In this document: piece by piece, positions 16,059 to 41,786 of the stretch | How positions within the stretch are numbered: position 1 is the stretch's first letter | Layout: each line of letters begins with the position of its first letter | Assembly (NCBI RefSeq): GCF_000383975.1 | Contig: NZ_KB913017.1 | Location: forward strand, 1,279,101-1,343,100 | Direction of reading: 5' to 3' | From: Natronorubrum tibetense GA33 | Lineage (GTDB): Archaea > Halobacteriota > Halobacteria > Halobacteriales > Natrialbaceae | DNA length: 64,000 nt | The notes under the pieces: model-generated | What the model saw: only the letters and a program-made list of their open reading frames with translations | Told to the model about the DNA's origin: nothing | Database searches by the model: none | Position numbers and translations under genes: made by a program

Positions 16059-17588
16059 ATGCAACCGGACCGCTGGGTAGCGGAACGGGCGTCGATCGCT
16101 GATTGGTCGGTCGCTACGGTTCGGGAGACGCAGGCGACCGGGTGGGGAATCGACCGATCCGATGCGGTCGTTGCCGTTCTCGGAAACACGGGGCTGATAG
16201 CGACGCTCGTAATCGGAGTGCTCGTACTGCTCGCTGGTGGACTGATAGTCGTGATTCGATCCGGATCGGCGGCGTCGACTAACTCCAGCGCTGAGCCGGC
16301 GAACCAGACCGAGACGGAGGCGACGACAGCGACCGAGACGGCTGATCCGAAAGCCGAGTTCGAAGAACGAATCGGATCCCAGACACTCGATCGACTCGAG
16401 CCGATCGCACCGGAGGCGGTCGAGCGCGTCCGGACCCGTCGACCGGGCGACCGTGAGGAACGGACTGAAACGGTCGATCAGCTCGAACGCGAGTTGCGTC
16501 GAGGCGTCGAGGATGCGATTGTGAACGGCGACCTCGACCCGAGCCTGACCTCGCGATACGGAGAATCCTACGAAATCGTCAATCTCCCGAGCCGGTACCG
16601 CGAGGTTACACTGCCGCCGTCGAACGAGACGATACACATCACGGATCTCGAGAGCGTCGCAGGAGATGCCCTCGAGCACGAAGCGGGGGTTCGGACCGTC
16701 GAGAAAACCGTCTCGCCACTGTACGATCACTGTCGAGAGATCGAATCGTACGTCGAGCAACGGGAAGAGGCGTTTGCAACGCAGTATACGGCCCTCGAAC
16801 GGACGCTCGAGGATATCCGCGAGCTGACCGACAGGCTCGAGGGGTCGCTGGGCGAACGGATCTCCGAATTCGTCCTAGAGGGACGACACGGCGAAATCGA
16901 CGGCGTCGTCGAAATCGAACGGCAGCTCGAAGCAGCGACCCGATCACTGCACCGCTGTGCGTTCGACGAGGCAACACGGACGCTTCGCGACGCACGCCGA
17001 GAGAGCGACGAACTACTGCTCACCGTGGACTTTCTTGGCGGACTCGTCGGAACAATCGAGCACGGGAGCGCCCAAATCGAGATACCCGATGGCGTTTCGG
17101 TGGCGTTCATCACCGACCTCACGTCGGTCGTCGAACGCGCGTACGACGTCACTGTCGAACTCGAGGGTCGAACGATCATCGTTGACGACCATTCTGAGTC
17201 GGTGACGGGCAGTGACCGAACGGCTGATTCGACGGTGACATCGGTGTCGTCGGACGATAGCGCATCGCAGACTGGTCAGCAACGAGAGCGAATCGCGCCG
17301 GAATCGGTTGCCGACGAGCTCCTGTTCATCCTCCGGGAACTCGACAGCGTCGGCGATAGCGAGACTGTCGAATGCCAGACCGAACAGCTGCCGGAGACCG
17401 TCGCACGACCCGAGGTGCTCTCGGAGTTGGCGACGTTCTGTCGGCGACAGACGGATATCGTTGCGACGGTCGAGTTACAGGACGGCGCGCCGCCGGGATT
17501 TCTCGAGCTCGAGTTCGTCGACCAGTTCGGGGCAAGTAGCGGACTCAAAGCGCTTCGAGAGCGATTTACAGATCGGTACGGCGGCTGA
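16059..17588 (+). CDS. Membrane-anchored coiled-coil protein, first gene of the tubulin-like locus
   Basis: A 509-residue protein that I cannot assign to a family. The ATG at 16059 is preferred over a TTG at 16050. One strong membrane span lies at about 37-62, then a Ser/Thr/Glu linker. The body (about 95-320) is largely helical with heptad-like charged segments (CREIESYVEQREEAF, TLEDIRELTDRLEG). A smaller mixed alpha/beta part follows (about 320-380), then a spacer and a C-terminal domain (about 410-505). It is 116 bp upstream of the zinc-finger tubulin-like gene on the same strand. The layout resembles the other membrane-anchored helical proteins of the locus (at 19597 and 24399), so it probably tethers a cytoplasmic assembly to the membrane. 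Confidence 0.8.
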   Translation: MQPDRWVAERASIADWSVATVRETQATGWGIDRSDAVVAVLGNTGLIATLVIGVLVLLAGGLIVVIRSGSAASTNSSAEPANQTETEATTATETADPKAEFEERIGSQTLDRLEPIAPEAVERVRTRRPGDREERTETVDQLERELRRGVEDAIVNGDLDPSLTSRYGESYEIVNLPSRYREVTLPPSNETIHITDLESVAGDALEHEAGVRTVEKTVSPLYDHCREIESYVEQREEAFATQYTALERTLEDIRELTDRLEGSLGERISEFVLEGRHGEIDGVVEIERQLEAATRSLHRCAFDEATRTLRDARRESDELLLTVDFLGGLVGTIEHGSAQIEIPDGVSVAFITDLTSVVERAYDVTVELEGRTIIVDDHSESVTGSDRTADSTVTSVSSDDSASQTGQQRERIAPESVADELLFILRELDSVGDSETVECQTEQLPETVARPEVLSELATFCRRQTDIVATVELQDGAPPGFLELEFVDQFGASSGLKALRERFTDRYGG

Positions 17589-17704
17589 AAAGTAGGAAAA
17601 TCTACTGCCCCGAGAGCGGAGGATAATAACCGTACTGGCCGTTCTCCGGTATCCACCACACGTAATACTTTAGATAGTTCCGCCGTACGGGTAAGATATC
17701 CGGA

Positions 17705-19297
17705 ATGACCAACATCTGTAAAATCTGTATGCAACGGGCAACTGAATGGCAAGGTGACTCGCTCACCGACCACGTTCGAGCCGCACACGGTGACGAACCG
17801 GCCTCGGTGGAACAAGTGTATCCGGAGTTAGCGGGCGCGCTCGAGGAAGCGGCTCCCGACGGAGAGTCACCGGTGACGGACGGCTCAGCGATCGACGGTC
17901 CAGACGACCGGCCAAGCGACGAGTTGATGGACGACTCCTACGGGAAAAAATGGTTCCTCATCGGTGTTGGCGGCGCAGGAAACAACATTCTCGACGCGGT
18001 GTTGCTTCGACGCGAGACGCTCGAGGAGAACAACGAACGACGGGCGCGGATCTGGAAGGGGGGCCTCGCCGGCTACGGGCTGTTGAACACGAACGTTAGC
18101 GAACTCGAACAGACCTACTACGCCCAAGAGGAGAAAGAATACAGCCGTAACGACCTCCTCCCGAACAGCATCATCGGGTTCGGAAAACACGACTACGCCG
18201 GCGCTGGCTACCGCTGGGACATCGGCAAAGAACTCATCGAGGCGGATTTTGCAGACGACGCCGATCCCTTCCGGGAGCGATGGGATCTCCGAAAGGATCG
18301 GATTCAGGACTCCCAGGCCGTCATGTTCGTCCACAGCGTCACGAAAGGGACCGGCTGTGGGTCGACACCGGTGCTGGCCGAGAAGATCCGCAACCAAGTT
18401 CTCGAGAACGATTTCGTCGTTCCGAAACCGTTGTTCAGTAGTATCGTTATCCCATCAAAAGGGACCGAATACTCGGAGTTCGGCGGGCGAGCAAAAGTCA
18501 ACGGGATCGTTGGTCTCGCGCGTGCCTCTCGAACGGTCGACGCGATTATTCCGTTCGACAACAACCGTCTCGAGAACGTGCAGGCGGATATCCGTCCGCG
18601 AATCGACCGCCTCGACGAGTATAATCCGCCACAGTACCAGGAGATCAACAAACCGCTCGTCGCGTTTCTCGAGGCCTTTACCATGTCGTCGGTCCCGCAG
18701 TTCCTCGATCGGGACGCGACGATGTCCATCATGGGCGACGTGTTCGACCCTGCGGACAGTTTCCGTCCCGTCCAAGACAAGTACCGGCACGATCCGGATA
18801 ACGAGTTCACGCCGGCAGTGATTCTCGCCCCCGTCTTGGGGCGGTCGCGCGCGAACTCGTTCGACCGCTCGAAACTCGAGATTCTCGTCCGGAACGCACT
18901 GTTCCAGAACAAACTCGCCGAGTTCGATCCGACGACCGCGTGGGGCGGAACCTTCCTCGTCTACGGTCCCGAAGAGAAGATGGCCGAAGTCTCGGAGTTC
19001 GTCGCCGACGGAACGCTCTCGAATATTATCGCGGGCGAGCAGTTCTTGGATGCCGGCGGAACGAGCGGAATCGAATCGATCGACATCCATCTCAAACAAC
19101 TCGTCACCCCGTACCTCGACGACGTTTACCTCTGGGGAACGCTCTGGAATCCAGAGATGCCGTCACTCGAGGAGATGTACAACCACGCCCAGACGCTCAA
19201 GCAAGAGGGGAACAGCCAACAGGCCGAAAACGTTCGAGACGCGTGGGAGAACGTCGAAACGCTGTTCTCCTGTCTGGGACGAGAGAATATGGCGTGA
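17705..19297 (+). CDS. Tubulin/FtsZ-superfamily protein with N-terminal C2H2 zinc finger
   Basis: A 530-residue protein. The N-terminus holds a zinc-finger pattern C5-x2-C8-x14-H23-x4-H28, then an acidic linker to about residue 77. The GTPase domain starts with FLIGVGGAGNNILD (T1 loop, GVGGAGN at 87-93). The tubulin signature appears as HSVTKGTGCGSTPVLA (T4, 214-220), in which FtsZ's first Gly is Lys. The nucleotide-contact segment is IIPFDNNRLENV (DNNRL at 285-289) and a T7-like acidic loop (MGDVFDPAD) follows. It is longer than FtsZ or CetZ. Best fit is the FtsZ-like family sometimes called Tubulin_2/FtsZl-1, described from diverse bacteria and archaea. It probably forms GTP-dependent polymers in the cytoplasm, with the finger as a partner- or nucleic-acid-binding module. 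Confidence 0.85.
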   Translation: MTNICKICMQRATEWQGDSLTDHVRAAHGDEPASVEQVYPELAGALEEAAPDGESPVTDGSAIDGPDDRPSDELMDDSYGKKWFLIGVGGAGNNILDAVLLRRETLEENNERRARIWKGGLAGYGLLNTNVSELEQTYYAQEEKEYSRNDLLPNSIIGFGKHDYAGAGYRWDIGKELIEADFADDADPFRERWDLRKDRIQDSQAVMFVHSVTKGTGCGSTPVLAEKIRNQVLENDFVVPKPLFSSIVIPSKGTEYSEFGGRAKVNGIVGLARASRTVDAIIPFDNNRLENVQADIRPRIDRLDEYNPPQYQEINKPLVAFLEAFTMSSVPQFLDRDATMSIMGDVFDPADSFRPVQDKYRHDPDNEFTPAVILAPVLGRSRANSFDRSKLEILVRNALFQNKLAEFDPTTAWGGTFLVYGPEEKMAEVSEFVADGTLSNIIAGEQFLDAGGTSGIESIDIHLKQLVTPYLDDVYLWGTLWNPEMPSLEEMYNHAQTLKQEGNSQQAENVRDAWENVETLFSCLGRENMA

Positions 19298-19596
19298 CGT
19301 GGTTTGCTGTAACGACGTACCGGTGAGGCCGTAGGACCGAATCACGGCCCCACCGAAAACGACTGACAGTAGACAGTTCGAGTCGATCGAGACGTACTCG
19401 ACGGTGCGGCGACAGCAACCGACCGGTCTCGTCGGCGTCCTCGATCGGCCTCGAACACGGCCAACGCCGAGAGGGGAAACGATCGGACGGGACCGAATTT
19501 CGATCATCCAGCCGAGCTAGCCTCGGAATAATCCGTAAACGAGACATATCAGGGCAGAAGGTTAATCACGGATTGCACTCATGCGTTCGCTGTGCA
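19298..19596. other. Spacer between two genes of the tubulin-like locus
   Basis: I see no supported gene in these 299 bases. Open frames here on the minus strand lack start context and motifs. A moderately AT-rich stretch at 19530-19570 may carry the promoter of the next gene, but no clear TATA element stands out. Confidence 0.5.
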
Positions 19597-21573
19597 ATGG
19601 CAGCGGATGGTAATACGCTCCGGTGGAAGCTCGGGTGGTCACCGTGGCTCGTGATCGGCAGTATCGTAATCGTCAGTACAATCGTCGGCGTGGCACTGGA
19701 AGCCACTGGTTGGTTCTTCATCCTCGGACTCGCGGCGGGATTCGGGACATGGTATTGGGGTGTTGTAGAGATCAACAACAGCTATCAGCCGTATATCGAG
19801 AGCTTTCTCAGTCGATCCGAACAGAACGCGAAACGCGGAATCAATGTCGAAGACGGTGAGCTGTACAACCTGACGTACACATCTGGACAGTCCCCTCTGC
19901 TGGTCGAACCCGATGATACGTACTTCAACACTACGATCGTCGTGACCGAGACATCGATCAACCTCAATAAAGGGGCGACGTACAACATGAAATCCCGCTC
20001 AGGAAAGGGTGGCGGGACGAACGAAGAGATTTATTATGATCAAGTGACCGGAGTTCAGTCCCATCAGGGCGGGAACGTCACCGAACTCGAGATTCAGATG
20101 TCCGGCGGCAACTCGACTAAAATCCGATCGAACAAGACGGATACCGTCGATTCGGTCGTCTCCGACGTCAGACAGCGTGTCCGCAAACTCAAGCGGCCCG
20201 GAGCCGGCCGTCAACGGCCGGATACTACCGGCTCGATGGCTCACGCTGCCGGCAGTGAACAACAGGAACCCCCACGAAGATCGTCGGCAAACGATTCGAC
20301 GGACCGCTCTGCGCCCGATGACACAGGAACCGAGTCCTCGAGCCACGATTCGTCACCCCACCCCGTCACAGCAGTCGCGGACAGTGTCGGCAGGGACGCG
20401 AACCCACGTGACCCGCTCGCCGAGGAGTTATGTCGCATGCTCGCCGATCCGTCAGCAAACGAAGCGCAACTCGAGACGACGCTCGAGACCGTAGTCGACC
20501 GACTCGAACGGACGAAAGCGGTTACGGACACCGTCGAACGGATCGACGACCCGACAGCGACGACACAGGTCGAATCAGCAAAACGAACGCTCGTCGAGCA
20601 GGACGACACGCTTTCGAACACCGTCGAACGACTGCTCGATCGACTCCTCGAGGGTGAGGAGGCGTCCACCGTTACCGAACTCGAGGAAACGCTATCGGAG
20701 CGTGAAGCCGAACTGGAACGGCACAAAGCTGTCGAGAACCGCCTCCGAGATGCAGCCAGTTCGATCTGCCGAGATGCCAGCCAGCGCGGTGTCGTTTCCT
20801 TCCAATCGGAGGATGTCATCGATCGATTGGATCGGCTCGCAGCCGCACTCAAACGCGAGGATATCGTACTCGAGACGCCAGATTCGACGGGAGGATTTTC
20901 GTCGGTCGTCGACGATGTCGAACGGACGGCCCGACCGCAGACGGCTCAATCCAGACAGCTCCTTGAGACGATCGGTAACCCCGAACAAACCGAAGCGCAG
21001 AGACGGTCGGCTCTGCAGTCGGCGGTCGAGACGCTCGACGAGTTCGCCGATTTACAGGCCGCTGTCGCGGATATCGGCGAGCGCGACGTTCGTCGGCGGC
21101 TCGACTCGCTCGACGATGAACTGCAGTCAGAAGACGGAGCGGTCTATCGCCACCTCGCCGATCGAGTTCGGGAGTTGGAGTCGATGCTCAACCGCGGTGG
21201 CGTCGATGACGTGCAGTTGTACGCGATCTATCAGGAGAGTACGTTCTACGATCGGACGTTTCTGCCGCGGTTGTCGCGGTCCCAAACCGAGTCGGAGTCG
21301 GTCGATACCGATCAGCTCCGCAGCACTGTCGACGCGCGCATCGCGTCCATCGAGAACGAATACGTTTCCGTCAGAGCCGATCACAACCATACGATCCCGA
21401 CGCACTTCCTGTCGCTCGCGGAGGAACTCAGCGCGGAAGCGGACTCGCTCGAGAGACGACATCCCCAACGCGCGGCCGGTGTCCTGTCAGCTACAGATGA
21501 CCTCCTCGGCCACGTAGAACAGCTGTACGAGCGAAACGAGTACAGCGTCATGCTTCGCCGGCTCCGTGGGTGA
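19597..21573 (+). CDS. Two-span membrane protein with PH-like domain and long helical region
   Basis: A 658-residue protein. The ATG at 19597 is chosen over an upstream in-frame TTG at 19573. Two hydrophobic spans (about 14-38 and 39-58) put both termini in the cytoplasm. A beta-rich segment of about 100 residues follows (ELYNLTYTSG to TVDSVVSDVRQRVRKLK), resembling a bacterial PH-like domain with a closing amphipathic helix. A disordered Ser/Asp linker (about 205-275) leads to about 370 residues of mostly helix with heptad character (LEETLSEREAELERHKAVENRLRD). It is followed 194 bp later by the eight-gene operon. It probably links membrane and cytoplasmic filaments. No enzyme motif is seen. 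Confidence 0.8.
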   Translation: MAADGNTLRWKLGWSPWLVIGSIVIVSTIVGVALEATGWFFILGLAAGFGTWYWGVVEINNSYQPYIESFLSRSEQNAKRGINVEDGELYNLTYTSGQSPLLVEPDDTYFNTTIVVTETSINLNKGATYNMKSRSGKGGGTNEEIYYDQVTGVQSHQGGNVTELEIQMSGGNSTKIRSNKTDTVDSVVSDVRQRVRKLKRPGAGRQRPDTTGSMAHAAGSEQQEPPRRSSANDSTDRSAPDDTGTESSSHDSSPHPVTAVADSVGRDANPRDPLAEELCRMLADPSANEAQLETTLETVVDRLERTKAVTDTVERIDDPTATTQVESAKRTLVEQDDTLSNTVERLLDRLLEGEEASTVTELEETLSEREAELERHKAVENRLRDAASSICRDASQRGVVSFQSEDVIDRLDRLAAALKREDIVLETPDSTGGFSSVVDDVERTARPQTAQSRQLLETIGNPEQTEAQRRSALQSAVETLDEFADLQAAVADIGERDVRRRLDSLDDELQSEDGAVYRHLADRVRELESMLNRGGVDDVQLYAIYQESTFYDRTFLPRLSRSQTESESVDTDQLRSTVDARIASIENEYVSVRADHNHTIPTHFLSLAEELSAEADSLERRHPQRAAGVLSATDDLLGHVEQLYERNEYSVMLRRLRG

Positions 21574-21692
21574 TCCCCGCTCGAGGCGTGCATCGATATC
21601 AGTCGGTCGACCGTCACGCGACACGGACGTGTATTCTTTGTTAGTACGCATTCATATTTCAGCATATACTCCTCAAATTACGCCTTAATGGC

Positions 21693-21735
21693 GCGGAAGG
21701 GGCGATAAACGCGGAAGGGCCAATATCTTTAATAG
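21693..21735 (+). promoter_or_regulatory. Promoter with direct repeat for the eight-gene tubulin-like operon
   Basis: The 9-bp direct repeat GCGGAAGGG occurs at 21693-21701 and 21711-21719, 18 bp apart start to start. It is followed directly by a TATA element, TCTTTAATAG, at 21726-21735. Transcription would begin near 21757, about 10 nt before the GTG at 21768. Repeats placed just upstream of TATA are a typical position for archaeal activators or repressors. Another AT-rich TATA-like stretch lies at 21655-21672. Confidence 0.5.
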
Positions 21736-21767
21736 GTGATATTCGAGAAAGTCTATTATCAATACAT

Positions 21768-23111
21768 GTGCCAGTCAATTACTATTTTCAGCGGAAAGCA
21801 GAACCGCTGGCTGATACGCAAATGACGTACCTGTTCGTAGGGGCGGGACAGGCGGGTGGTGCGATCGTCGATTCCATCTTCGAATACACCGACGATTCGA
21901 TGCTCGGACTGTTCGAATCGACCGACATCTCGACTCTCGGTCGACCACTGGTGTTCAATTCGACGATGCGTGATCTCCAGAACCTGTCGAACGTTCCCGC
22001 CGAAGATCAGTACGGTGTGGCAGAACAGCACGGACTGGTTCAGGGAACCGAACCGGGATTCGAAGAGATGGTGACTGGCGGCTTCGGGCGGAATCCAGTT
22101 GCCGCCGACGAGGTGATGGACGAACACGCGTCGGAACTCCAAACGATTCTTGGCGAGAAGTTCGGTACCGCCTTCGAGTCGGACCTCGACGAAGAGAGCG
22201 ACGAGGACGCTGGAGAGATCGATCCGAGTGGGAGCGACACGATTCAGTTTGCGTTTCTCTTTCTCGGACTCGGCGGCGGAACGGGCTGTGGAATCGGTCC
22301 GCACCTCGCCCGTCAACTCAAGGAGTTCACCGATGGCCGGACCCAAATCGTCGCGGTCGCAGTGCTCCCAAACACCCGAGGAGGAGCGACGGGGGACGAC
22401 GACACTAGTGCAGGCCGGCAGGCGTGGAACACACGGTACGGTCTGGACCGCCTCGAAGACGAAGTCGACGGCGTCATCCTCGTCGATAATCAGCGCCTCT
22501 CCTACCTCGATTCGGCAGGTGGCGAGTTCGGAAAGTACAACGAGTACGTCGCCACGGCGATTCACGATATGGTTGCAGGACCGATGCTGAATAGCGTCGA
22601 CGCGAGCGAGGTCGATGGGATCGACACACCGGACATCGACGTTCGAGACCTCCTCACGTCGCTGTCGTTCGGTGTCGGCACCGACGAGGCGAAGCCGGGA
22701 TACGGTGCGATCGGCCGGTCGGTAACCATGACCAGATCATTGGCGGGCTATCTGTTACCGGTCGTCGGTAAGCGCGCGATCGACAGCGCGGCGATTTCCA
22801 GACTCTCAGTGTCGAAACAATCACTCGCGAACGCCGATATCGGCGACGCACAGAAGGCCATCGCGTTGATCAGAGCACCTAGCTCGAGGCTGGGTGCTGG
22901 TCCACACAGCGTCGAGACGGGAACGGTGAAAGAGTTCCTCGAGGGGAGTTCTCAGTTGGGAGAAGTCAACCTCGGCGTCGCACTCAGCGATCGGAACCTC
23001 GTCTCGGTGACGAGCGTCCTGACCTACCGTCGCGAGGATATCGATCGCCTCGAGGAGATCGAATCGGCGGCCGACGCCTACGAGGAAGAGACGGAGGAAC
23101 TGCTCGCATGA
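21768..23111 (+). CDS. Tubulin/FtsZ-superfamily protein (second of three)
   Basis: A 447-residue protein, the most canonical of the three. T1 is YLFVGAGQAGGAIVDSIFE (GAGQAGG at 25-31, close to CetZ in form). The tubulin signature GGGTGCG is at 169-175 inside FLFLGLGGGTGCGIGP. The guanine-side segment is ILVDNQRLSYLDS (240-244) followed by KYNEYVATAIHDMV, and the T7-like catalytic loop is around DIDVRDL (289-295), so GTP hydrolysis on assembly is plausible. An acidic loop (about 138-155) is inserted before the T4 strand. Start: the GTG at 21768 fits the TATA distance; an ATG at 21822 would remove 18 residues. Its stop overlaps the next gene (ATGA). Confidence 0.87.
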   Translation: MPVNYYFQRKAEPLADTQMTYLFVGAGQAGGAIVDSIFEYTDDSMLGLFESTDISTLGRPLVFNSTMRDLQNLSNVPAEDQYGVAEQHGLVQGTEPGFEEMVTGGFGRNPVAADEVMDEHASELQTILGEKFGTAFESDLDEESDEDAGEIDPSGSDTIQFAFLFLGLGGGTGCGIGPHLARQLKEFTDGRTQIVAVAVLPNTRGGATGDDDTSAGRQAWNTRYGLDRLEDEVDGVILVDNQRLSYLDSAGGEFGKYNEYVATAIHDMVAGPMLNSVDASEVDGIDTPDIDVRDLLTSLSFGVGTDEAKPGYGAIGRSVTMTRSLAGYLLPVVGKRAIDSAAISRLSVSKQSLANADIGDAQKAIALIRAPSSRLGAGPHSVETGTVKEFLEGSSQLGEVNLGVALSDRNLVSVTSVLTYRREDIDRLEEIESAADAYEEETEELLA

Positions 23112-23380
23112 GACGCGGGCGGGTGCGGATCGTGACTGGCGTGCTCGCGTTCGTCCTGACAGTCAGTGTGGCTGCCGGAACGAGCGTCGCAGCTGGCACG
23201 TCGTCGGTCGGGCAGGCCATTGACGCAACCGAACTGGCGATGACGACACAGACGCTCGCTGGCCAGCCACTCCTCATCGCGGCCGGCGGACTCCTTCTCG
23301 GCGCAGGTCTCGGCGTCGCGGTTGCAAGTGGTCTCACCTACTGGTACAAGAACAGAGAGATCCAGGGGCGACTACGATGA
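23108..23380 (+). CDS. Small exported single-pass membrane protein
   Basis: A 90-residue protein. An N-terminal signal-like segment (about 1-28, RRGRVRIV then a hydrophobic core) is followed by a short extracytoplasmic loop and a Gly/Ala-rich membrane span (about 53-77). A basic cytoplasmic tail (WYKNREIQGRLR) ends it. It overlaps the genes on both sides by 4 bp, so it should be made in step with the second tubulin-like protein. The GxxxG-like packing in the span suggests helix-helix contact with another membrane protein of the set. Confidence 0.75.
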   Translation: MRRGRVRIVTGVLAFVLTVSVAAGTSVAAGTSSVGQAIDATELAMTTQTLAGQPLLIAAGGLLLGAGLGVAVASGLTYWYKNREIQGRLR

Positions 23381-24402
23381 TCGGGCGCAGACAGCTCGCA
23401 GTGGGCCTAGTGATACTGGCGATGGGACTCGTCGTCGTCACCGGGACTGGCGTCGCAGACACGGCAGAACACTGTGACGACGAGGAGGCGGCGATCGTGA
23501 GTGAGTTCGACGAGACCCTTGCGAATAATGAAACGCTCTCACTACACGAAGAGACGACGTTCGAGGTCGCCCACTGCGGTGAGACGAGAACGCAAGACGA
23601 CTGGTTGAACCACTCGAACGCGGAGGGGTTCAACGTGTCAGATCGGAATAACGGCGTCTACACCGTCGAAATTACCGGGAAAACGCCGACGTTCGACTTT
23701 GCAGACTACGCTGAAGTTGACGAATTCGAAGACGAACCCGACGGACTCGTCGTCGAGGTCCCTACGCCGGCGACGTTCGGCGAGGGCGGCGAACCTGCCG
23801 ATCCCGACGGAGAGTACGAAGCACTCGTCGCAGAGTACCACGATGCAACTGTCAATTTCGAGAACGCAACCGACGAGTTGGACGCGGTTCGGGAGACCAT
23901 CGAGTCGAGCGACGATCCCGATTTGGAAGAGGCACTCGAGACGGTGAACGCGGTCGAAGAGCGCCAGGAGAGGATGACCGGCGCGGAAACCGCGGCTATC
24001 GAACACGTGATCCAAGAGATGGATGATGGGAATATGACGGGCGCTTTCGGAGCCATCGCGACGATCGAAGCACAGCAACACGAACGCGCGGATTCGCTCG
24101 AGAAGTCGACCGAGACCTATCGGACGACGGTCGAGAACGAACGGGACGAGCCACAAATGACGGTTCGACTCACGCTGGGTGGCTCGCTACTGGGCGGGCT
24201 CCTGGCCGGGGTTCTTGCGGGCGCGGCGATACCGCTCGTCGCCGCGAAGCGCGTCGAGTCGAAAATGCGACTGAGTCGGAACGTGACGTACAATCGCAAC
24301 ACTGCACTGTTGCCGATTCTCGTGGGCGTCGTCCTCGTGATCGGCGGGATCGCGGTGCTTGCCCTCGTCGGCTGGGCGGATCTAGTGGGGGTGATTCGAT
24401 GA
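23377..24402 (+). CDS. Exported protein with helical ectodomain and two membrane spans
   Basis: A 341-residue protein. The signal peptide is at about 1-27. The ectodomain (about 28-255) begins with a beta-rich part holding two Cys (C33 and about C67, possible disulfide) and continues as helix with several Asn-X-Ser/Thr sequons (NET, NHS, NVS, NAT, NMT), as expected for a glycosylated haloarchaeal surface part. Two spans follow, near 262-287 and 310-333, joined by a short basic loop (AKRVESKMRLSRN). Both ends therefore face outside or near the membrane. It overlaps its neighbours by 4 bp on each side. Unknown family; probably the outer part of the complex. Confidence 0.75.
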   Translation: MIGRRQLAVGLVILAMGLVVVTGTGVADTAEHCDDEEAAIVSEFDETLANNETLSLHEETTFEVAHCGETRTQDDWLNHSNAEGFNVSDRNNGVYTVEITGKTPTFDFADYAEVDEFEDEPDGLVVEVPTPATFGEGGEPADPDGEYEALVAEYHDATVNFENATDELDAVRETIESSDDPDLEEALETVNAVEERQERMTGAETAAIEHVIQEMDDGNMTGAFGAIATIEAQQHERADSLEKSTETYRTTVENERDEPQMTVRLTLGGSLLGGLLAGVLAGAAIPLVAAKRVESKMRLSRNVTYNRNTALLPILVGVVLVIGGIAVLALVGWADLVGVIR

Positions 24403-26486: not shown

Positions 26487-26489
26487 CAA

Positions 26490-27716: not shown

Positions 27717-27725
27717 TCGTCGAGG

Positions 27726-30614: not shown

Positions 30615-30618
30615 GTAG

Positions 30619-33964: not shown

Positions 33965-34068
33965 CCTCGGGACACCGTCGCGGGCTCCGTTTTCGAGTGG
34001 AAAGAGAGTACAAACGGACTGTTGCTCGAATGCTGTTGAGCATCGTTCGCAGAAATGCAAGGAGGGAG

Positions 34069-34088
34069 CCAACGACTTCAGTCGTTGG
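34069..34088. repeat. Hairpin at the convergent junction, possible IS200/IS605-type end relic
   Basis: A perfect 8-bp stem with a 4-nt loop, CCAACGAC-TTCA-GTCGTTGG, lies in the 186-bp gap between the two convergent operons. The stretch just before it (34010-34068) also holds short self-complementary pieces. Hairpins of the form CCAACGACTTCAGTCGTTGG are, from memory, common at the right ends of haloarchaeal IS200/IS605 (IS1341-type) elements. No transposase gene remains. It may now serve as a shared transcript end. Confidence 0.35.
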
Positions 34089-34150
34089 GGGAATCCGACT
34101 TGCGACCGACGAACAGCGTCGTCGACACGATTCGGTCCACGAGGCGACGC

Positions 34151-37126
34151 TTACCGCGTTCGAAACGACGTCGAGAGTGACGGTGGTAATTCCGGACCGG
34201 TCCCGGACGATCCCTCGAGGCGATCGATCGACCACGCCGACAGGTGCTCGTCGGACCAGTTCGCCTCCTCGTCGACGGCCGGCCCAGACGCTCGAACGCT
34301 GTACTCCTGTTCGGTGTCGTCGACCGTGTAGCGAACCGCGGCATCGAACGTCGGTTCGTCCACGTCCGGGCGCAGGTCGACGAAGTGCTCGATCCAGTCG
34401 CCAGCCTCTAACAGCTCTCGGTGGGCCGGCGAATAAAACGTCTCGTTGATCGGGTCACCCGTCGCGTCCACCGACACGTTCGATACCGCGCGATCGCTCT
34501 GATTTTCGAAGACGAGGACGACGGATCCGTACTCGCCAGCGGCCCGGGTCTCCGAACCGATCTCGCACCCGAGTAACACCTCGCTCGTGTCCGCTTCCGA
34601 GTCGGCCTCGGACGGACGATCAATCGGTGAGACGGCCGCAAGCGCGTCGATCGTCTCCTCGGACCCATCGTCGTCTCGAACCGCGATCGATACCTCGAGT
34701 GCATCAGCGTTCGACGGTGTACTATCCGTCGGTATCGTCAGCGTAGAAAGACCGCCGGCCTCGAGTCGCTTCCCGACTGACTCCTGGTGGTCTCCGACCA
34801 CGAGCCCGAGAAGCTGGCAGCCTCGCGGACGGTGGTTCTCGAGTTCCAGACCGACTGTTCCGTCCGTCGGGTCGACAGCCGCTCTAACGTCGATCCCGTC
34901 CCCAGCGACCTCGAGCGTGCGTTCGGGGATTCGATCGACAACGGTTCCGTTTACCTCGATCGTCGCTGACGGCAACACGAGTTCGTCACTCGAACCGACG
35001 GCGACGGCCCGCGAGAGTGCGACAGTCGCGCCCGGTTCCAGCGGTCCGAGATCGATGCGTTCGTCATCGGCAACGACCGTGACCGCGTTCTCGGAGTCAC
35101 CGCCGTTCTGGACGGAAATCCGATCGCGGACGACGTGGCCGACGGCCGGAGCGTCACCGTCGATCTCTCGCGTTGCAGTGATCGAGCCGCCAGTCGAAGG
35201 CGACGCGGTCGACGGCTGACTGCCCTCGAACGCGTTCGAGTCAGGTTCAGCGGACTCGTTTTCCGCTGGTTTGGACGATACGGCGTCACCCACATCGACC
35301 GTCGAACGGGTCTCCGAAGGAGCGTCGGTATCGGGGTTGTCGTCCGTCGGGGTCGAGGTCGGCGTGTCTGGCGGTTCAGACCGGTTTCCAGCCGCAGTGG
35401 CAGCCGTAGTTCGCTCGTCCTCCGGTTCGAGACGATCGGTCGAGCCGGTTCGGTCCACACCACCGACGCTACTGCGGTCGCGACGGTCACCGGTCGGCCC
35501 GGCGGGCCCGGCGGATGTCGTAAACAGCCCCGATCCGCGAACGGACGCCTGCTCGGCGACATCGATCGAATTAAACCCGATTCGAGCGGTGCCCGACTCG
35601 TACTGTGGAACGACGAGTATCACGTCGTCGTCCGCGATGGTTACCGGCGTTCGAACCCGACCAGCACCGGGAAGTTCGATCACGAGCTGGTCGACGATTG
35701 TGACGCTGTCAGAACCCGTGACAGTCGCGTGTAGCGCGTCACCGTTCGATTCGATATCGATAGCCGGCGGCGACGGGAGCGTACACGTCGGCGCGTGTTC
35801 CCGAGATCGGTCGCCGACCGAGACCTCGATCCCGGCAGTTACGCGTCGTTCGGGTTCGTACGGCCGCGTAACCGTCGTCGTCCACTGTTCGCCGGCTCGC
35901 AGATCGGTTCCCGAACCGGTCTCGAGAACCCGTACCGAGTCGAGCGCCCCGTCACCGACGTTGTCGACGGTAAGCGTCAGTTCGGCGACTCCATCCTCGA
36001 TCACCGTCGGCTCGAGTCCGATCGCAACGCTCGGAATCTCGGTCGCGGTATCCTCGACCGAGATCGATTCCTGCTGGACCACCGAGCCCTCGATAGCAAC
36101 GTCGACCTCGGCTCGTCCAGTCGACTGGACTGACGTGACTGGAAACGCGACCGACGTCGTTTCGCCCGGGCCGACGGAGACCGGACGCTCGTTCGGTGAC
36201 AACGTACACGCCGAGACATCGACGTCGAGAGTGAGCGCTCGCTCGCGATCCGACGGATTCGTAACCTCGATATCGATCGTTTCACCGACCTCGACGAAAT
36301 CAGTCGTGACCGCAATTTGGACCTGTTCTCGACGGAGAGCGTACGTCGAGACCGTTCCGTCGCGAATCGTACAGGCAACCGATCCATCGGTTGCCGCGTA
36401 AACGTCGCCACTCGAGAGATCGGTGACGGGGTCCGTCGATCCATCAGAACTGATCGCTTGAATCCCGGTAGCCGTATCCGCCAGCACCGATGTCTGACCG
36501 GCCGGCGACACGTGGGTCGTCTCGAGATCGGTGTCCCACCGTGAGTCCCCACTCGGTACGTCGAGTCCGACCAGACGATCGTTCTGGAGGGCTGCGACGA
36601 CGACATCCTCACAGTATCCGACGCTTCTGATAACGGCCGCGAGGTCTCGGTCGAATTCGATTTCGCCACCGCTCGAGACCGCGGTGAGAAACGACCAGGT
36701 GGCGATCAGAAAGCCGGACGGCACGGCGACGAGCGTATCGTCGGGACCGCCAGGGCGCGTCCGCTCCACGTCGAACCGGTCCTGACCGGTCGGAACGTCG
36801 ATAGCGCGGAATCGATCCGGTCCGAGGATGCCACAGCAGTCGCCGTCGACGGTTGCAGCGATCGCGTGCGCATCCTCGATCGGCCGCTGCCAGATTTGGT
36901 TTCCATCGCGCGAGTATGCAGTCAGGTCGCCCTGCGAGAGGACGAGTATTCGGTCGGCAACGGCGACGTCGACGATACGGTCACCGTGGCTGATCCCGTC
37001 CAGTTGTGTCTCTGTCACGATCTCGAGGTGGTCGTCGATTCCGATCGCGATAACCGACTCACCGATACCGACGGCCTCGACGCGACCGCTCTCGAACGAC
37101 GTGATCGATTGATAACTACTGGCCAT
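34151..37126 (-). CDS. Beta-propeller plus CARDB-like protein without signal peptide
   Basis: A 991-residue protein. The ATG at 37126 (MASSYQSITSF) is chosen; it overlaps the AAA+ gene by 11 bp. Residues about 1-265 are a PQQ/WD-like beta-propeller with recurrent units such as LVLSQGDLTAYSRDGNQIWQ and VVAALQNDRLVGLDVPSGDSRW. Several CARDB/NEW3-like beta-sandwiches follow (about 270-540, with VTNPSDRERALTLDVDV and LTVDNVGDGALDSVRV), then a disordered Ser/Thr/Pro/Glu linker (about 555-650) and two more sandwiches (about 660-960). No signal peptide or membrane span is seen, so it should be cytoplasmic, which is unusual for CARDB-type domains. It may bind the cytoplasmic beta domains of the plus-strand membrane proteins. 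Confidence 0.78.
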   Translation of the reverse strand: MASSYQSITSFESGRVEAVGIGESVIAIGIDDHLEIVTETQLDGISHGDRIVDVAVADRILVLSQGDLTAYSRDGNQIWQRPIEDAHAIAATVDGDCCGILGPDRFRAIDVPTGQDRFDVERTRPGGPDDTLVAVPSGFLIATWSFLTAVSSGGEIEFDRDLAAVIRSVGYCEDVVVAALQNDRLVGLDVPSGDSRWDTDLETTHVSPAGQTSVLADTATGIQAISSDGSTDPVTDLSSGDVYAATDGSVACTIRDGTVSTYALRREQVQIAVTTDFVEVGETIDIEVTNPSDRERALTLDVDVSACTLSPNERPVSVGPGETTSVAFPVTSVQSTGRAEVDVAIEGSVVQQESISVEDTATEIPSVAIGLEPTVIEDGVAELTLTVDNVGDGALDSVRVLETGSGTDLRAGEQWTTTVTRPYEPERRVTAGIEVSVGDRSREHAPTCTLPSPPAIDIESNGDALHATVTGSDSVTIVDQLVIELPGAGRVRTPVTIADDDVILVVPQYESGTARIGFNSIDVAEQASVRGSGLFTTSAGPAGPTGDRRDRSSVGGVDRTGSTDRLEPEDERTTAATAAGNRSEPPDTPTSTPTDDNPDTDAPSETRSTVDVGDAVSSKPAENESAEPDSNAFEGSQPSTASPSTGGSITATREIDGDAPAVGHVVRDRISVQNGGDSENAVTVVADDERIDLGPLEPGATVALSRAVAVGSSDELVLPSATIEVNGTVVDRIPERTLEVAGDGIDVRAAVDPTDGTVGLELENHRPRGCQLLGLVVGDHQESVGKRLEAGGLSTLTIPTDSTPSNADALEVSIAVRDDDGSEETIDALAAVSPIDRPSEADSEADTSEVLLGCEIGSETRAAGEYGSVVLVFENQSDRAVSNVSVDATGDPINETFYSPAHRELLEAGDWIEHFVDLRPDVDEPTFDAAVRYTVDDTEQEYSVRASGPAVDEEANWSDEHLSAWSIDRLEGSSGTGPELPPSLSTSFRTR

Positions 37127-38846
37127 CTGGGTCACCACCGTGAGCGCTATCACCGTCACTGCGGCGACCAGTTACAGGCTCCTCTTGGCCCGCGTGACGG
37201 CTAGTCGGCTCCGATCCATTTCCGGATGAATCCTCCGGCCCATAACTGGCTGGACCGTCGTCGCCAGCCGCTGTCGAATCGCCGCCGAACAGTTGTTCGA
37301 GTGACGACGGGCCGTTGCCGAGTTGCATTCCCAGTCGGTCGGCCTGTTCCTCGACGTATCGACGGAGTTCGGGGTAGCCTTCGAGGTCGTCGATCTTCGT
37401 TCGAACACTCGCGACGTACTGGCGGATCGTCTTGGGTTCAGTCCCCTCGAGTCGCTCGAGGAAGTAGTCGGTATCGGGGTCGATCGGCTCCCGGTCGGAG
37501 AGATACACGCTCTCGACGAACTCCCGCTGCAGTTCGCTGCCGAGAACGCGGTCGGCGATCTCCGCCGGTGTGTATCCCTCCGAGGCCGAACCGAGTCGAT
37601 CGTATCCGATGTCGTCCGTGCCGGTCATCGACGAGAGATGCTTGCGCCAGACCTCGGCCATCACCTCTTTGTCGGGTTGGGGGATGAACTGCTGGATCGG
37701 AAATCGTCGAGTGGCTGCCGGATCGATGGTGAACGGCATGTTCGTCGCCCCGATCACGAGCAGGTTGTCTTCGATCTCGTTCATCTCCTGTAAGAAGGCG
37801 TTGGTCAGCGAGCGCTCGTGCCGTTGCAGCGAGTCGTCCCCGCGATCGGGAATTAAGGTATCGACCTCGTCGAAAAAGAGGACGGCGAACCCCTCCTGGG
37901 CGATCCCGTGAGCTTTCTCGAAGATCGCTTCGACGCGTTTCTCGGATTCGCCGGAGTACTTCGAGAGGACGTCGCTTCCTTTGATCTCTAGGAATTTAAC
38001 TTCGCCGTAGCTGTCCTCGATGTTCGAGTTGTACTTCGCCTCGTAGGCGATCGCCTCCGAGATCAGTGTCTTTCCACACCCCGGCGGCCCGTAGAGTAAC
38101 ATGCTGTTCCCCCGGGAGGCGAACTCGTCGCCGTAGCGGTCGACGACCTCGTCCCGGACGTCGGGATCGAACAGCGCCAGCAGATTCTCTGCGGTTCGCT
38201 TGACTGTCGGGAGCCCCGCCACGTCCTCTTCGAAGCTGACGGTCGGTTTCTTCGGCTCGAGAGAAACCTGGACCGCTTCGTCATCGCTGGCCCCCTCTTC
38301 ACCGCGGCCCGCGGGACCGCCGCGGCTCGCTGCGTTTCTGGTAGCCCGCAGTTCTCGGAGTTCGCCGGCATCGATGAACTCGAGGTCAGTATTAGGGGTT
38401 ACCCGCAACGTGTTGTAATCCGACGGCTCCAGCGAAGCGACCTCGAACGTCGTTAAGCTGTCACCTTTTGGCACGACTTCCTCCATCGGGTGAAGCAGAT
38501 AGTTGTTCTCGCGAAGGAACGGTTCGAGTTCGTCCGGAGCGAGTTCGCTCGTATGGATCTTCGCCGAGGAGCACTCGACGACGTCACGTTTGGCCGCGTC
38601 GGGATCGACGAGAAAGTCCTTACCACGATCGATCCCCCCGAACACGGTCTTTACATTCCGGTGCATCCGGACCTTGTTTCCGATTCCGTCGACGATCGTA
38701 TCGTCGATCGGTTCGACGTAGAAAAACGCCCGGCGGTCGTTGTGACGGATCTCGACCATGTCGGTGTTCGGTCCGACTTTTTTGGCTCCGATTTTGATGC
38801 GGGACGTCGGCTGATCTCGTTTCAGTATTGGCGTCAGATTAAGCAT
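37116..38846 (-). CDS. AAA+ ATPase of the Vps4/Cdc48 type
   Basis: A 576-residue protein with a single AAA module. The N-terminal part (about 1-190) is probably a substrate- or adaptor-binding domain with double-psi-barrel-like features (KTVFGGIDRGKDFLVDPDAAKRD). The AAA core has Walker A GPPGCGKT (253-260), the Vps4/Cdc48-like block SDVLSKYSGESEKRVEAIFEKA (about 291-312), Walker B LFFDEVD (323-329), sensor 1 GATN (366-369) and the ATRRF arginine region (379-382). A helical lid (about 400-500) and a disordered Gly/Ser/Asp tail follow. Only one AAA ring, as in Vps4, instead of Cdc48's two. It overlaps the genes on both sides by 8 and 11 bp. It probably remodels or disassembles a polymer of the locus. 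Confidence 0.9.
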   Translation of the reverse strand: MLNLTPILKRDQPTSRIKIGAKKVGPNTDMVEIRHNDRRAFFYVEPIDDTIVDGIGNKVRMHRNVKTVFGGIDRGKDFLVDPDAAKRDVVECSSAKIHTSELAPDELEPFLRENNYLLHPMEEVVPKGDSLTTFEVASLEPSDYNTLRVTPNTDLEFIDAGELRELRATRNAASRGGPAGRGEEGASDDEAVQVSLEPKKPTVSFEEDVAGLPTVKRTAENLLALFDPDVRDEVVDRYGDEFASRGNSMLLYGPPGCGKTLISEAIAYEAKYNSNIEDSYGEVKFLEIKGSDVLSKYSGESEKRVEAIFEKAHGIAQEGFAVLFFDEVDTLIPDRGDDSLQRHERSLTNAFLQEMNEIEDNLLVIGATNMPFTIDPAATRRFPIQQFIPQPDKEVMAEVWRKHLSSMTGTDDIGYDRLGSASEGYTPAEIADRVLGSELQREFVESVYLSDREPIDPDTDYFLERLEGTEPKTIRQYVASVRTKIDDLEGYPELRRYVEEQADRLGMQLGNGPSSLEQLFGGDSTAAGDDGPASYGPEDSSGNGSEPTSRHAGQEEPVTGRRSDGDSAHGGDPDGQ

Positions 38847-39570
38847 TGTGATCGCTCCCTAACTGTGTCGTGGCCCGTTCGATCGTGGATAACAGTTCAG
38901 CCTGGCGCTGGTCGGTCCGCCTGTGAACGTATCTGGAATCTGCGACGGCACGACGAATAACGAATACCAACGTCTCGAGCATCTCGACGACCGTACCACA
39001 GTCGGCCCGCAGTGCCCGATCGCTTTCGGCGACTCGAACGCGGCGTTCGACCCGCCTGAAATCCTCGAGGATTTCGTCGAGGTGCTCGAGAAGCGTCTCG
39101 ATGACCGGATGCCAGTTATCCGCGTACGGTGCGATCGACGAGAGCGGAACGATCACCCACGAGTCGACGGTCTCGAGTCGGTCGTCGGTCGTAACCCGAT
39201 CGACAGTCTCCGAATCGAACAGTTCGATCGGCGCCGACCCTCGCTCGTAGCTTGTTTCGAGCACCCGACGAACGAGGTCGTCCCGTCGCGAGTGAGTATC
39301 GGTCGCTCCCCCGCCCTGAAAACCGCCATCAGGACGGTACTCGAGCGATTTTCGTTCGGTGTCCGTCCCGCCACTACGACTCGGATCGCCCTCGGTCCGC
39401 GGCGGGAACGGTGCCCCGGCGCGCAACAGTTCAGCGAGGTCGAGAAGTACGTCTATCGTCTCGTCGATCCGCCGAGAGGGGTCGGTATCCGAGAACGTTC
39501 GCACGGCGAGAAGTCGGTCCCCCTGTTCGTCGACCCGGCGAACCCCCTGTAGCAACGAGTCTGCGCGCAT
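38839..39570 (-). CDS. Helical protein of unknown function between the AAA+ and coiled-coil genes
   Basis: A 243-residue cytoplasmic protein. It is helical at both ends, with a Gly/Ser/Thr-rich loop in the middle (about 50-90). The C-terminal half (about 135-240) has an amphipathic helical bundle character (VIETLLEHLDEILEDFRRVERRV). It starts one base after the stop of the coiled-coil gene and overlaps the AAA+ start by 8 bp. Such tight spacing suggests it works with the ATPase, for example as an adaptor like LIP5/Vta1 for Vps4, but no sequence match supports that. Confidence 0.75.
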   Translation of the reverse strand: MRADSLLQGVRRVDEQGDRLLAVRTFSDTDPSRRIDETIDVLLDLAELLRAGAPFPPRTEGDPSRSGGTDTERKSLEYRPDGGFQGGGATDTHSRRDDLVRRVLETSYERGSAPIELFDSETVDRVTTDDRLETVDSWVIVPLSSIAPYADNWHPVIETLLEHLDEILEDFRRVERRVRVAESDRALRADCGTVVEMLETLVFVIRRAVADSRYVHRRTDQRQAELLSTIERATTQLGSDHNA

Positions 39571-39571
39571 C

Positions 39572-40627
39572 CTACGACATCTCGAGTTCGGTCGGTTCGG
39601 TTTCCGCGTCCTCCTGTACGGCGTCGCCGGCGGTCTGTTGGGCTACCTCGCCGACACCGTCGATTCCGCCGAGCACGTCGTCGACCAAACTATCGACCTC
39701 GTGGTCTGGCGTTTCCGAAATCGCCTCCTCGATGCCGCCGACACCCGCGAGTTGAGTCGTCAGTTCGCCCATGTTGTCGACGATGTTCATCGCCTCATCC
39801 GGAAACGTCTGCTTTTTGAGCGCCTGGGTGCGGACCTGCTCGCGCTTGTTCGCAAGCGTGGTTTTGGCGGATTTGAGCATCTCGATGTTGTCGGCGAGTC
39901 TGTCGGCTCCGCTTTCGACTTTCTTGGCCAAGTTCTCCTGATCGGCCTCCTTCATCTTCTGGTGATAGATTAGCTTTCGTTTGAGTTGCTGGAACCGCTC
40001 CTGTTCGTCTTGCGAAAGCGTCGACGGATCGCTCGGAACGCCGGCACCGTCGCCGAGGCTTTTGAGTTCCTGGGCCGTTTCCTCCAGGTGTTCGTCGATC
40101 TGTCCCGACTCCTGATCGATATCAGCCATTCGGTTTTCGAGTTTTTCTTTGGCACCGTTGACTCGATCGATCGTCTCGGTGATCTTTTCGACGCAGGCGT
40201 CGATCGCCGCCGCCCAGTTGAGGACCATTCGACCGTTTATTTCATCGGGGTTCTCGCTCGGGTTGCGCAGCATCACGACCTCGCCGTGTTGGAGGTCTAG
40301 AATGTCTTCGTCAGCGAAAAACTCGATGAGCGCCTCGGCCTGTTGTTGGCTGGTAACGATGTCGCCGTCCTCGTCGCTAGCCGACGCGAGCGTCTCGATC
40401 GCCTGTCGTCTGTCGATCCGACCGTTCCCCTCCTTGAGTTCCATCGATCCCAGAAGATCGGACTTGATAATGGCTCGAATAGCCCGTTCCCACTCGCCTT
40501 CGACATCGTCGCCGTCGATCCAGCGTGCGTCCAGTCGAACCGACTCGTTCGTCTGGTTAACCGGATCCGCGATTACGTATTCCTGCCCGTCACTTTCGAT
40601 GCGTTCGAACTTGTATTTTTGAGACAT
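39572..40627 (-). CDS. Winged-helix plus long helical protein, ESCRT-III-like in layout
   Basis: A 351-residue cytoplasmic protein. Residues about 40-122 look like a winged-helix domain (WERAIRAIIKSD, SQQQAEALIEFFADEDILD, then a beta-turn LQHGEVVML). Residues about 140-270 are a long helical hairpin: AAIDACVEKITETIDRVNGAKEK as one arm, a Gly/Pro turn near 190-203, and FQQLKRKLIYHQKMKEADQEN onward as the other. A short helix with MNIVDNMGELTTQL follows, then an acidic tail ending in amphipathic helices (VDSLVDDVLGGIDGV). This order resembles winged-helix ESCRT-III proteins such as CHMP7, with a Vps4-like ATPase two genes away. That is a hypothesis from pattern, not a confirmed match; a generic coiled coil is the alternative. 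Confidence 0.78.
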   Translation of the reverse strand: MSQKYKFERIESDGQEYVIADPVNQTNESVRLDARWIDGDDVEGEWERAIRAIIKSDLLGSMELKEGNGRIDRRQAIETLASASDEDGDIVTSQQQAEALIEFFADEDILDLQHGEVVMLRNPSENPDEINGRMVLNWAAAIDACVEKITETIDRVNGAKEKLENRMADIDQESGQIDEHLEETAQELKSLGDGAGVPSDPSTLSQDEQERFQQLKRKLIYHQKMKEADQENLAKKVESGADRLADNIEMLKSAKTTLANKREQVRTQALKKQTFPDEAMNIVDNMGELTTQLAGVGGIEEAISETPDHEVDSLVDDVLGGIDGVGEVAQQTAGDAVQEDAETEPTELEMS

Positions 40628-40667
40628 TTTCGAGTCGTTGAATCGTTTGATATCAGTTCCGCGTTAG

Positions 40668-41786
40668 TTACTCCGCCATACCGCCGAACTCCTCCTCGTT
40701 GACGAGCGATCGATACCGCTCCCGAACCGCGTCGCGGACGTACTCGTTGACCGCCGTCGAGTTACTGACCTGTAACTCCGCGAAGTGGTCGTCGGCCAGT
40801 TCGACCCACTCTGGAAGCGTTCCGGGCAGTTGATCCTCCTCGGCTTTCAGATTGGTACGGACTCGCCTGGCGTGATCCTCGACGATATCTTCGAATGGAC
40901 CGGTCGCTTCGACCATCTCTCGTCCCTCCTCGAGACCGAGCTCGTCGAGTAACGTGTTTCGAGTCCCCTCGAGGATTTCCCGGCGAACGCTTCGAGCCTG
41001 CGAAAGGACATCGAACTGGCTGTCTATCTCGTTTTTGACGATCTGTTCGAACTCGTCGATTCGGAGCACGTAACTCGACTCTTCGAACTCAGTTTCGATG
41101 GCGTCAGCGATCTCTTCGCCGAGATACCGAGCGTACTCGTCGATCGCTTCCTCGACCAGATACTCGCCGTCGAGATCGACGATGTACCCCTCTCGGTCGA
41201 GATATCGAATCACGTCGGAGGTCGCATCCACATCGATGACGCTCTCGAGATCGTTGTGGGCGATTTTTCCGTTCGAAGCTTCCCGCTCGAGTCGAGAATC
41301 CAGGCCGACGTCGTCGGCGTGCTCTTTGAGCTGCGGGCCGATAGTGTAGTAATCGCGCTTGCCCGCGGTGATCCGCCGAACGTAGTTTCTCTCGGCGAGT
41401 TCGTCGGCGAAAAACTCCATGTCATCGATAGCGAGCGAAAACCGCGAGCGGAGCGTCTCGCCGGTGACGACGAGGCGCTGTCCGAACAGATTGGTTAGCT
41501 CGCGGGTAATGTTCATGTTCCCCTTGACACCGAACGGATCGACGTAGAAGATGCCGTCGCGCAACTGTTCTAGATCGACGAACTCGTCCGCGGACATCTC
41601 GACTAGCGCTTTGCGCATATCGCTCGAGGACAGTGAGCGCGCGTTGACGAGACCGACATCGGCGTTCTCGTACGCGGATTTGATCTCCCCTTTCTGATCG
41701 GAGACGTACACAAATCCGTAGTTGTTCTGTGCGATGTCCCGACACACGTCCTCCAGGACATCGGTGTCGACCGGCAAGAGTGTCAT
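40668..41786 (-). CDS. Tandem winged-helix protein, first gene of the minus-strand operon
   Basis: A 372-residue cytoplasmic protein. Several winged-helix-like units follow one another: about 52-85 (SSSDMRKALVEMSADEFVDLE with a wing RDGIFYVDP), about 90-150 (ETLRSRFSLAIDDMEFFADELAERNYVRRI then YYTIG), about 165-212 (GKIAHNDLESVIDVDATSDVIRYLDREGYIV then DGEYLVEEA), and possibly another at 240-275. The C-terminal 100 residues are helical. Repeated winged helices of this spacing resemble UFL1 and the ESCRT-II subunits more than a DNA-binding regulator, but this is a visual judgement. It has a near-leaderless promoter and is 40 bp before the coiled-coil gene. Confidence 0.78.
   Translation of the reverse strand: MTLLPVDTDVLEDVCRDIAQNNYGFVYVSDQKGEIKSAYENADVGLVNARSLSSSDMRKALVEMSADEFVDLEQLRDGIFYVDPFGVKGNMNITRELTNLFGQRLVVTGETLRSRFSLAIDDMEFFADELAERNYVRRITAGKRDYYTIGPQLKEHADDVGLDSRLEREASNGKIAHNDLESVIDVDATSDVIRYLDREGYIVDLDGEYLVEEAIDEYARYLGEEIADAIETEFEESSYVLRIDEFEQIVKNEIDSQFDVLSQARSVRREILEGTRNTLLDELGLEEGREMVEATGPFEDIVEDHARRVRTNLKAEEDQLPGTLPEWVELADDHFAELQVSNSTAVNEYVRDAVRERYRSLVNEEEFGGMAE

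Follow-up and report, generated by a model that had tools for sequence, protein, structure and literature searches.

A conserved, mobile sixteen-gene block of Natronorubrum tibetense encodes three tubulin families and a Cdc48/Vps4-group ATPase: a candidate membrane-remodelling system

The 64,000-nucleotide stretch of the Natronorubrum tibetense GA33 genome analysed here (contig NZ_KB913017.1, positions 1,279,101 to 1,343,100; hereafter the window) contains 16 open reading frames (ORFs) at 16059-41786, which form two convergent sets flanked by a hel308-like helicase gene (13541-15913) on one side and a HAD-hydrolase gene (42031-42681) on the other. Genes on the + strand are named g1-g11 (left arm) and genes on the - strand g12-g16 (right arm; Table 1). 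An original prediction, made from the sequence alone, had described two gene sets facing each other at this position, and all 16 ORFs were found there in the convergent arrangement. The packing with overlaps or 1-40 bp gaps that it described was seen for g4-g11 (-17 to +9 bp) and g12-g16 (-11 to +40 bp), but not for g1-g4, where the gaps g1-g2, g2-g3 and g3-g4 are 116, 275 and 248 bp; g1-g3 may be separate transcription units because of this loose spacing. Consensus hydropathy over orthologues placed membrane or signal segments in eight proteins (g1, g3, g5, g6, g7, g9, g10 and g11) rather than the five originally counted, and the other proteins have no notable membrane segment, with the exception of one hydrophobic core stretch in g4.

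Table 1 Features of the inserted block (window coordinates; PF00091 and PF00004 values are E-values; pLDDT, predicted local distance difference test)
Feature	Position	Strand	Description
Complete inserted block	15914..42028	.	both edges from the empty site between hel308 and the HAD-hydrolase gene in sister species
g1	16059..17588	+	one transmembrane helix and long cytosolic coiled coil; module g1-g3
g2	17705..19297	+	tubulin-superfamily GTPase, 530 aa, PF00091 3.9e-11
g3	19573..21573	+	N-terminal transmembrane segment, PH-like domain, coiled coil
g4	21822..23111	+	tubulin-superfamily GTPase, PF00091 1.3e-15; start picked from orthologues
g5	23108..23380	+	small, two transmembrane helices
g6	23377..24402	+	signal peptide, exported helical domain, two C-terminal transmembrane helices
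g7	24399..26486	+	two N-terminal transmembrane helices, coiled coil, weak immunoglobulin (Ig)-like domain match
g8	26490..27716	+	tubulin-superfamily GTPase, PF00091 4.6e-8
g9	27726..30614	+	signal peptide, exported domain, two central transmembrane helices, Ig-like part, helical cytosolic part
g10	30619..31632	+	exported helical protein, C-terminal transmembrane helix
g11	31616..33964	+	exported, strongly acidic Ig-like repeat protein, C-terminal transmembrane helix
g12	34151..37126	-	soluble beta-propeller (PQQ-like) and Ig/CARDB-like 'adaptin-like' protein
g13	37116..38846	-	single-AAA ATPase, Cdc48/Vps4 group, PF00004 4.5e-32
g14	38839..39570	-	helical bundle; sits where Halo_adaptin loci have a PspA/ESCRT-III-like gene; model mb344de69435b, pLDDT 79.8
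g15	39572..40627	-	winged helix (46-120) and helical hairpin (132-191, 206-270); AlphaFold model m2b8e8abea4b0
g16	40668..41786	-	conserved protein; occupies the place of the proximal winged-helix gene in Halo_adaptin loci; right-arm marker

The same complete order of genes is found in Haloquadratum, Natrinema, Halorussus and Halobaculum and on plasmid PHS2 of Halobacterium salinarum R1, where it spans OE_RS12000-OE_RS12075, and the order and orientation of every detected gene are the same in 41 of 42 loci, the sole exception being an overlap of the g13 and g14 gene calls in a Natrinema plasmid. This conserved order covers PHS2, the Natrinema and Halobaculum plasmids and one Haloquadratum chromosome, and chance could by no means account for the shared gene set and order. 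In a survey of 392 genomes from the order Halobacteriales, g8 was present in 38, g16 in 37 and g2 in 38, and all three were present in the same 36 genomes; the exceptions were G141 and G147 (g8 without g16 or g2), G209 and G015 (g2 only) and G025 (g16 only; genome 59% complete). The hypergeometric probability of this co-occurrence (2e-47) treats related, mostly linked loci as independent, and so means just that the pattern is not chance. At the genus level, g8 and g16 were each detected in 17 of 95 genera, with 16 common to both, and matches of the g16 profile in 388 genomes across the phylum were confined to the same order. Orthologues scattered without co-occurrence, the pattern named beforehand as speaking against a single system, were looked for among the 392 genomes and were not seen.

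The distribution is patchy, with the block present in approximately 10% of genomes, on chromosomes and on plasmids, and the other nine sampled species of the genus are without it. Four sister species have hel308 directly before the HAD gene (134 bp between them in G008), indicating that the block 15914-42028 was inserted or lost as a whole; no target duplication was seen at the block edges in this empty-site comparison. The spacer behind hel308 (window 15913/42029 junction; loci L177 and L178) differs between sister species, with a small extra ORF in G003, and may for this reason be an insertion hotspot. In Halopenitus the two arms are unlinked, lying approximately 260 kb apart in G085, 80 kb apart in G228 and on separate contigs in G162, and the right arm g16-g12 is kept despite its separation from the left arm. 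The H. salinarum plasmid copy is a close relative of both Halopenitus arms (0.76-0.79 for g2, g4 and g8; 0.73-0.75 for g13 and g16), and the separation was probably one event rather than three. Within a few kb of the unlinked right arm is a CetZ-like gene that faces away from it (L153 4303-5490, L154 4569-5756 and L155 5414-6601, all on the - strand).

Pairwise identities of left-arm and right-arm genes correlate (r 0.70-0.97, mostly >0.8), and the g2, g4 and g8 subtrees share many groupings. The conserved order, the co-occurrence, the empty site, the co-retention of arms when unlinked and the correlated divergence together strongly support the 16 genes being one unit, as had been proposed for the two facing sets. 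The g8 identity to the window (family f1) is approximately 81% in G129 and G386 and 45-58% in other genomes of the same family (f5); this departure of block identity from family lines, together with the existence of plasmid copies, points to spread of the block by horizontal transfer. The g16 matches of G129 (L137) and G386 (L120), both of genus g29, contain one in-frame TGA, most likely just an earlier stop. The block is a real, mobile and conserved multi-gene system.

Three different tubulin/FtsZ-superfamily proteins had been predicted, and g2, g4 and g8 all exceed the PF00091 cut-off (Table 1). The T1, T4 and T7 loops are kept in all three families (39-42 orthologues), reading GVGGAGN, SVTKGTGCG and VFDxADSF in g2, GAGQAG, GLGGGTGCGI and xIDxxD in g4, and SGEGGGR, LGGGTGNGS and VIDVxD in g8, respectively; this conservation is in keeping with GTP binding and polymer-dependent hydrolysis in all three, by analogy with FtsZ and tubulin. 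A C2H2-like zinc-binding motif is present at the N-terminal end of g2. The closest solved structures are CetZ/FtsZ for g4 (CetZ, 3zid, 1.6e-11) and g8 (FtsZ/CetZ, 4b46, 6.8e-13) and FtsZ, weakly, for g2. In a tree of the superfamily, g2, g4 and g8 each form one long-stemmed clade, the three being separate from one another and from the FtsZ and presumed CetZ sequences included from the same genus; long branches make the deep order of these clades unsure, and the tree contains no named CetZ sequence. The FtsZ cell division equivalog model TIGR00065 was not reached by any of the three (16.6-32 bits versus a cut-off of 295.2). The link to FtsZl-1/Tubulin_2 (PF13809) made in the original prediction was not borne out, as g4 scores 13 bits versus a cut-off of 27 and g2 and g8 have no match, the genome's own PF13809 matches all lie outside the window, and g2, g4 and g8 (408-530 aa) do not have the length (~1000 aa) or the long coiled-coil C-terminal half of FtsZl-1. 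A viral origin was not indicated: IMG/VR had no match for g8, and PHROG gave nothing informative. Another tubulin-superfamily ORF, very divergent (PF00091 2.8e-11), is located approximately 3.6 kb past the right end of the window (G000:C1:1346661-1347047, L209); it is not near g2, g4, g8, CetZ or FtsZ in the tree, where its branch is extremely long, and the frame used for it may be wrong.

Among the other left-arm proteins, g1 has orthologues in 39 of 42 loci, and a bacterial PH domain (bPH_2, 9.3e-8) and a zinc ribbon are present in the Natrinema orthologue of g3; the Ig-like part of g9 is CarboxypepD_reg-like, under the cut-off.

In the right arm, the predicted Vps4/Cdc48-like AAA+ ATPase was identified as g13. 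The Walker A, Walker B, sensor and Arg-finger regions are invariant in g13 orthologues, and the protein matches the CDC48 model at 8e-42 and CdvC at 7e-33, both under the curated cut-offs, with Cdc48/p97 as the best PDB matches. At E<=1 the N-domain profile found a single PDB match, a marginal one to a Cdc48 chain (E 0.08, partly in a linker), and the domain is possibly Cdc48-N-like. A Cdc48-family ATPase implicated in hyphal haloarchaea (PMC10067837) was considered as a possible equivalent of g13, and no evidence for identity was found. The H. salinarum orthologue of g12 matches PQQ_2 (7.5e-12) and CARDB (3.7e-6), both over the cut-off, and g12 has no transmembrane segment by consensus hydropathy. 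The AlphaFold model of g15 agrees, with moderate confidence (mean pLDDT 70.6), with the winged-helix plus helical-hairpin architecture originally proposed, and the g16 profile gave no coherent match in the PDB. PspA or Snf7 Pfam matches were not detected for g14 or g15 at E<=1. Fold comparison gave no diagnostic match to ESCRT-III (endosomal sorting complex required for transport III) for either protein: the g15 hairpin matched CdvB (Z 8.0) and CHMP2A-CHMP3 (Z 7.7) amid many unrelated coiled coils (best Z 9.5), and the best match of g14 was a MukBEF chain (Z 11.9), followed by syntaxin-type bundles at approximately 9, with Foldseek E >= 0.38.

The right arm resembles the Halo_adaptin loci of Halobacteriales, which contain a Vps4-like ATPase without MIT and with a VAT-like N-domain, a PspA-like gene upstream of the ATPase, two winged-helix genes, propeller/Ig adaptin-like proteins, more Ig proteins, a membrane protein and one CetZ-like protein, and for which vesicle formation is predicted (Makarova et al. 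2024, PMC11188069). Genes g12-g16 agree in order with this description: g13 is a single-AAA Vps4/Cdc48-like ATPase, g15 corresponds by its model and gene order to the winged-helix and coiled-coil protein upstream of the ATPase, and the g12 orthologue is a propeller/Ig adaptin-like protein. The published representative, Haloquadratum walsbyi, has the homologous locus (L171 of H. walsbyi J07HQW1, and G069; 94% identical in g16). Compared by published description, we infer that g8-g16 are the Halo_adaptin system. However, the published system has one CetZ-like protein, whereas three tubulin families, g1-g7 and a co-transferred 16-gene unit are seen here, in addition to split-arm co-retention and versions without the right arm. 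The original view that the full set was unreported thus holds for the 16-gene unit and its three tubulins, but not for the right arm and the CetZ-like protein.

Two other published groups bear on the tubulins. FtsZl-1 operons (Tubulin_2) combine a divergent tubulin with membrane proteins and are predicted to remodel membranes (Makarova and Koonin 2010, PMC2875224); the present block likewise has divergent tubulins beside membrane proteins, but its tubulins are shorter and match PF00091, not PF13809, and it has an AAA+ ATPase in place of the vWA/GTPase set. The Halo.Tub group comprises CetZ-like proteins of Halobacterota that occur as several quasi-tandem copies with coiled-coil neighbours (Santana-Molina et al. 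2023, PMC9871819) and, compared by description, may include g2 or g4; that account describes no system, AAA+ arm, module structure or co-occurrence. Haloferax CetZ1/2 rank with the closest proteins of solved structure to g4 and g8, but are in separate clades and have no comparable operon. Through its ESCRT-like half the system is already partly known, and what is new is the whole 16-gene unit, the three tubulin families, and the modular reassortment and link to FtsZl-1 systems.

This link was apparent from loci with only part of the block. G141 and G147 contain a complete g4-g12 core without g1-g3 and g13-g16, and an FtsZl-1 operon encoding an FtsZl-1 protein, a membrane P-loop protein and another membrane protein adjoins the core on the left side in G141 and on the right side, joined to g12, in G147. 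The G141 FtsZl-1 protein matches PF13809 over the cut-off (4.5e-9), and is just 27% identical to that of G147. A fragmentary contig of G343 reads from the end of g11 through g12 into FtsZl-1; in G209, which lacks g4-g11, FtsZl-1 and a g12-like gene converge on g3-g2-g1; and in G015 the genes g1-g2-g3 are accompanied by g12-like, g9-like and AAA+ genes, one of each. Based on these arrangements, g1-g3, g4-g11, g12, g13-g16 and the FtsZl-1 operon behave as exchangeable modules. At a smaller scale, g14-g15 show 24-37% identity to the window copy in G129 and on the plasmid of Natrinema sp. SYSU A 869, against 71-73% for the neighbouring g13 and g16, and the two g15 proteins are 81% identical to each other; the g14-g15 genes seem to have been swapped as a pair, and are possibly a specificity cassette. 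Genes for g13-like AAA+ proteins (~1e-17 to 1e-19) were also located a few kb from FtsZl-1 genes in G337 (L183 11444-13291) and G304 (L193 7847-9727).

We consider it fairly probable that the 16 genes encode a single machine that spans the envelope, remodels membranes and is transferred as a whole, and that this machine extends the Halo_adaptin ESCRT-like system. In such a machine, g2, g4 and g8 would polymerise in a GTP-dependent manner on the membrane's inner face, and g1, g3, g7 and g9, as single- and double-pass anchors, would couple the polymers to the exported helical and Ig proteins g6, g10 and g11. The propeller/Ig protein g12 and g14-g16 would deliver either cargo or subunits of the polymers to g13, the ATPase that would pull the assembly apart by disassembly or extraction, with the soluble yet fast-evolving g12 and g14 as adaptors. 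The likeliest output would be a local deformation of the membrane, for example the budding of vesicles or tubules, with a surface organelle as the next choice. Support comes from the T1/T4/T7 loops, the invariant AAA+ motifs, the eight membrane or exported partners and transfer as one unit, from recombination of the core with FtsZl-1, a second presumed membrane-remodelling system, and from the published predictions of vesicles for Halo_adaptin (PMC11188069) and of remodelling for FtsZl1 operons (PMC2875224). The membrane and exported parts diverge fast (~40-60% identity) and the cytosolic g2, g4, g8 and g13 keep approximately 80%, which would fit a conserved cytosolic engine with fast-evolving membrane and exported parts.

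Several points weigh against this machine. PF03357 (Snf7-type ESCRT-III) had no match in the whole genome, although the model is weak for archaea, as the control matched only Sulfolobus, under the cut-off; fold searches with g14 and g15 gave no diagnostic ESCRT-III match and nothing above the helical background; no experiment on any component was found in the literature; and the patchy distribution is also compatible with an accessory function in, for example, defence or competition.

A wider reading, which we put forward tentatively, is that the block belongs to a recombining family of prokaryotic envelope-remodelling machines made of exchangeable modules. The three tubulins would assemble together in these machines, and the membrane event would be driven by one of two engines, an AAA+ unfoldase or a GTPase complex of FtsZl-1. 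The modules of the family would be g1-g3 as a tubulin with a PH/coiled-coil anchor, g4-g11 as a two-tubulin envelope core with g12 as adaptor, g13-g16 as an AAA+/winged-helix arm, and an FtsZl-1/GTPase arm.

It is rather unlikely that the block instead assembles an envelope-spanning secretion system or surface organelle, in which a structure outside the cell is made of the exported Ig-like and helical proteins, and its assembly or recycling, rather than vesicle budding, is what the tubulins and AAA+ ATPase support and drive. The four exported proteins (g6, g9, g10 and g11) and the rapid divergence of the membrane and exported parts relative to g2, g4, g8 and g13 are in keeping with this, but no pilin, secretin-like or known secretion component was recognised among the Pfam matches of the block proteins, and vesicles are predicted for the related system. 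A cell-shape or division cytoskeleton, in which the three tubulins would be additional CetZ/FtsZ-like proteins with roles like those of CetZ1 or FtsZ1/2, is improbable: the g4 and g8 profiles do best match CetZ/FtsZ structures, but two FtsZ and further CetZ-like genes are already present in the genome, the three tubulins lie outside the presumed CetZ clade, and most of the genus, as sampled, manages without the block. An anti-viral or competition island would account for a patchy, mobile element inserted as a block and for the paired swap of g14-g15; it is also improbable, since PADLOC gave generic AAA+ and coiled-coil models only and no toxin-like or nuclease domain was found. Partition of plasmids or other replicons in the manner of TubZ-TubR-tubC, the winged-helix proteins serving as adaptors to DNA, would suit tubulins and winged-helix proteins encoded together on several large plasmids, but is very improbable given copies on main chromosomes, eight membrane or exported proteins and no iterons or centromere-like repeats in the intergenic gaps searched.

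As a trans-envelope remodelling machine, the block would join two separately predicted archaeal membrane-remodelling systems, Halo_adaptin and FtsZl-1, via a common tubulin-bearing envelope core, and suggests joint action of tubulins and Cdc48/Vps4-type unfoldases on prokaryotic membranes. Its occurrence in cultivable organisms, including H. salinarum R1, makes its function directly testable.

Elsewhere in the window, a 2625-aa ORF at 44781-52658 (- strand) contains right-handed beta-helix/NosD repeats (Beta_helix 5.8e-71, NosD 3.6e-59), many of its internal repeats being common to the sister species G008.
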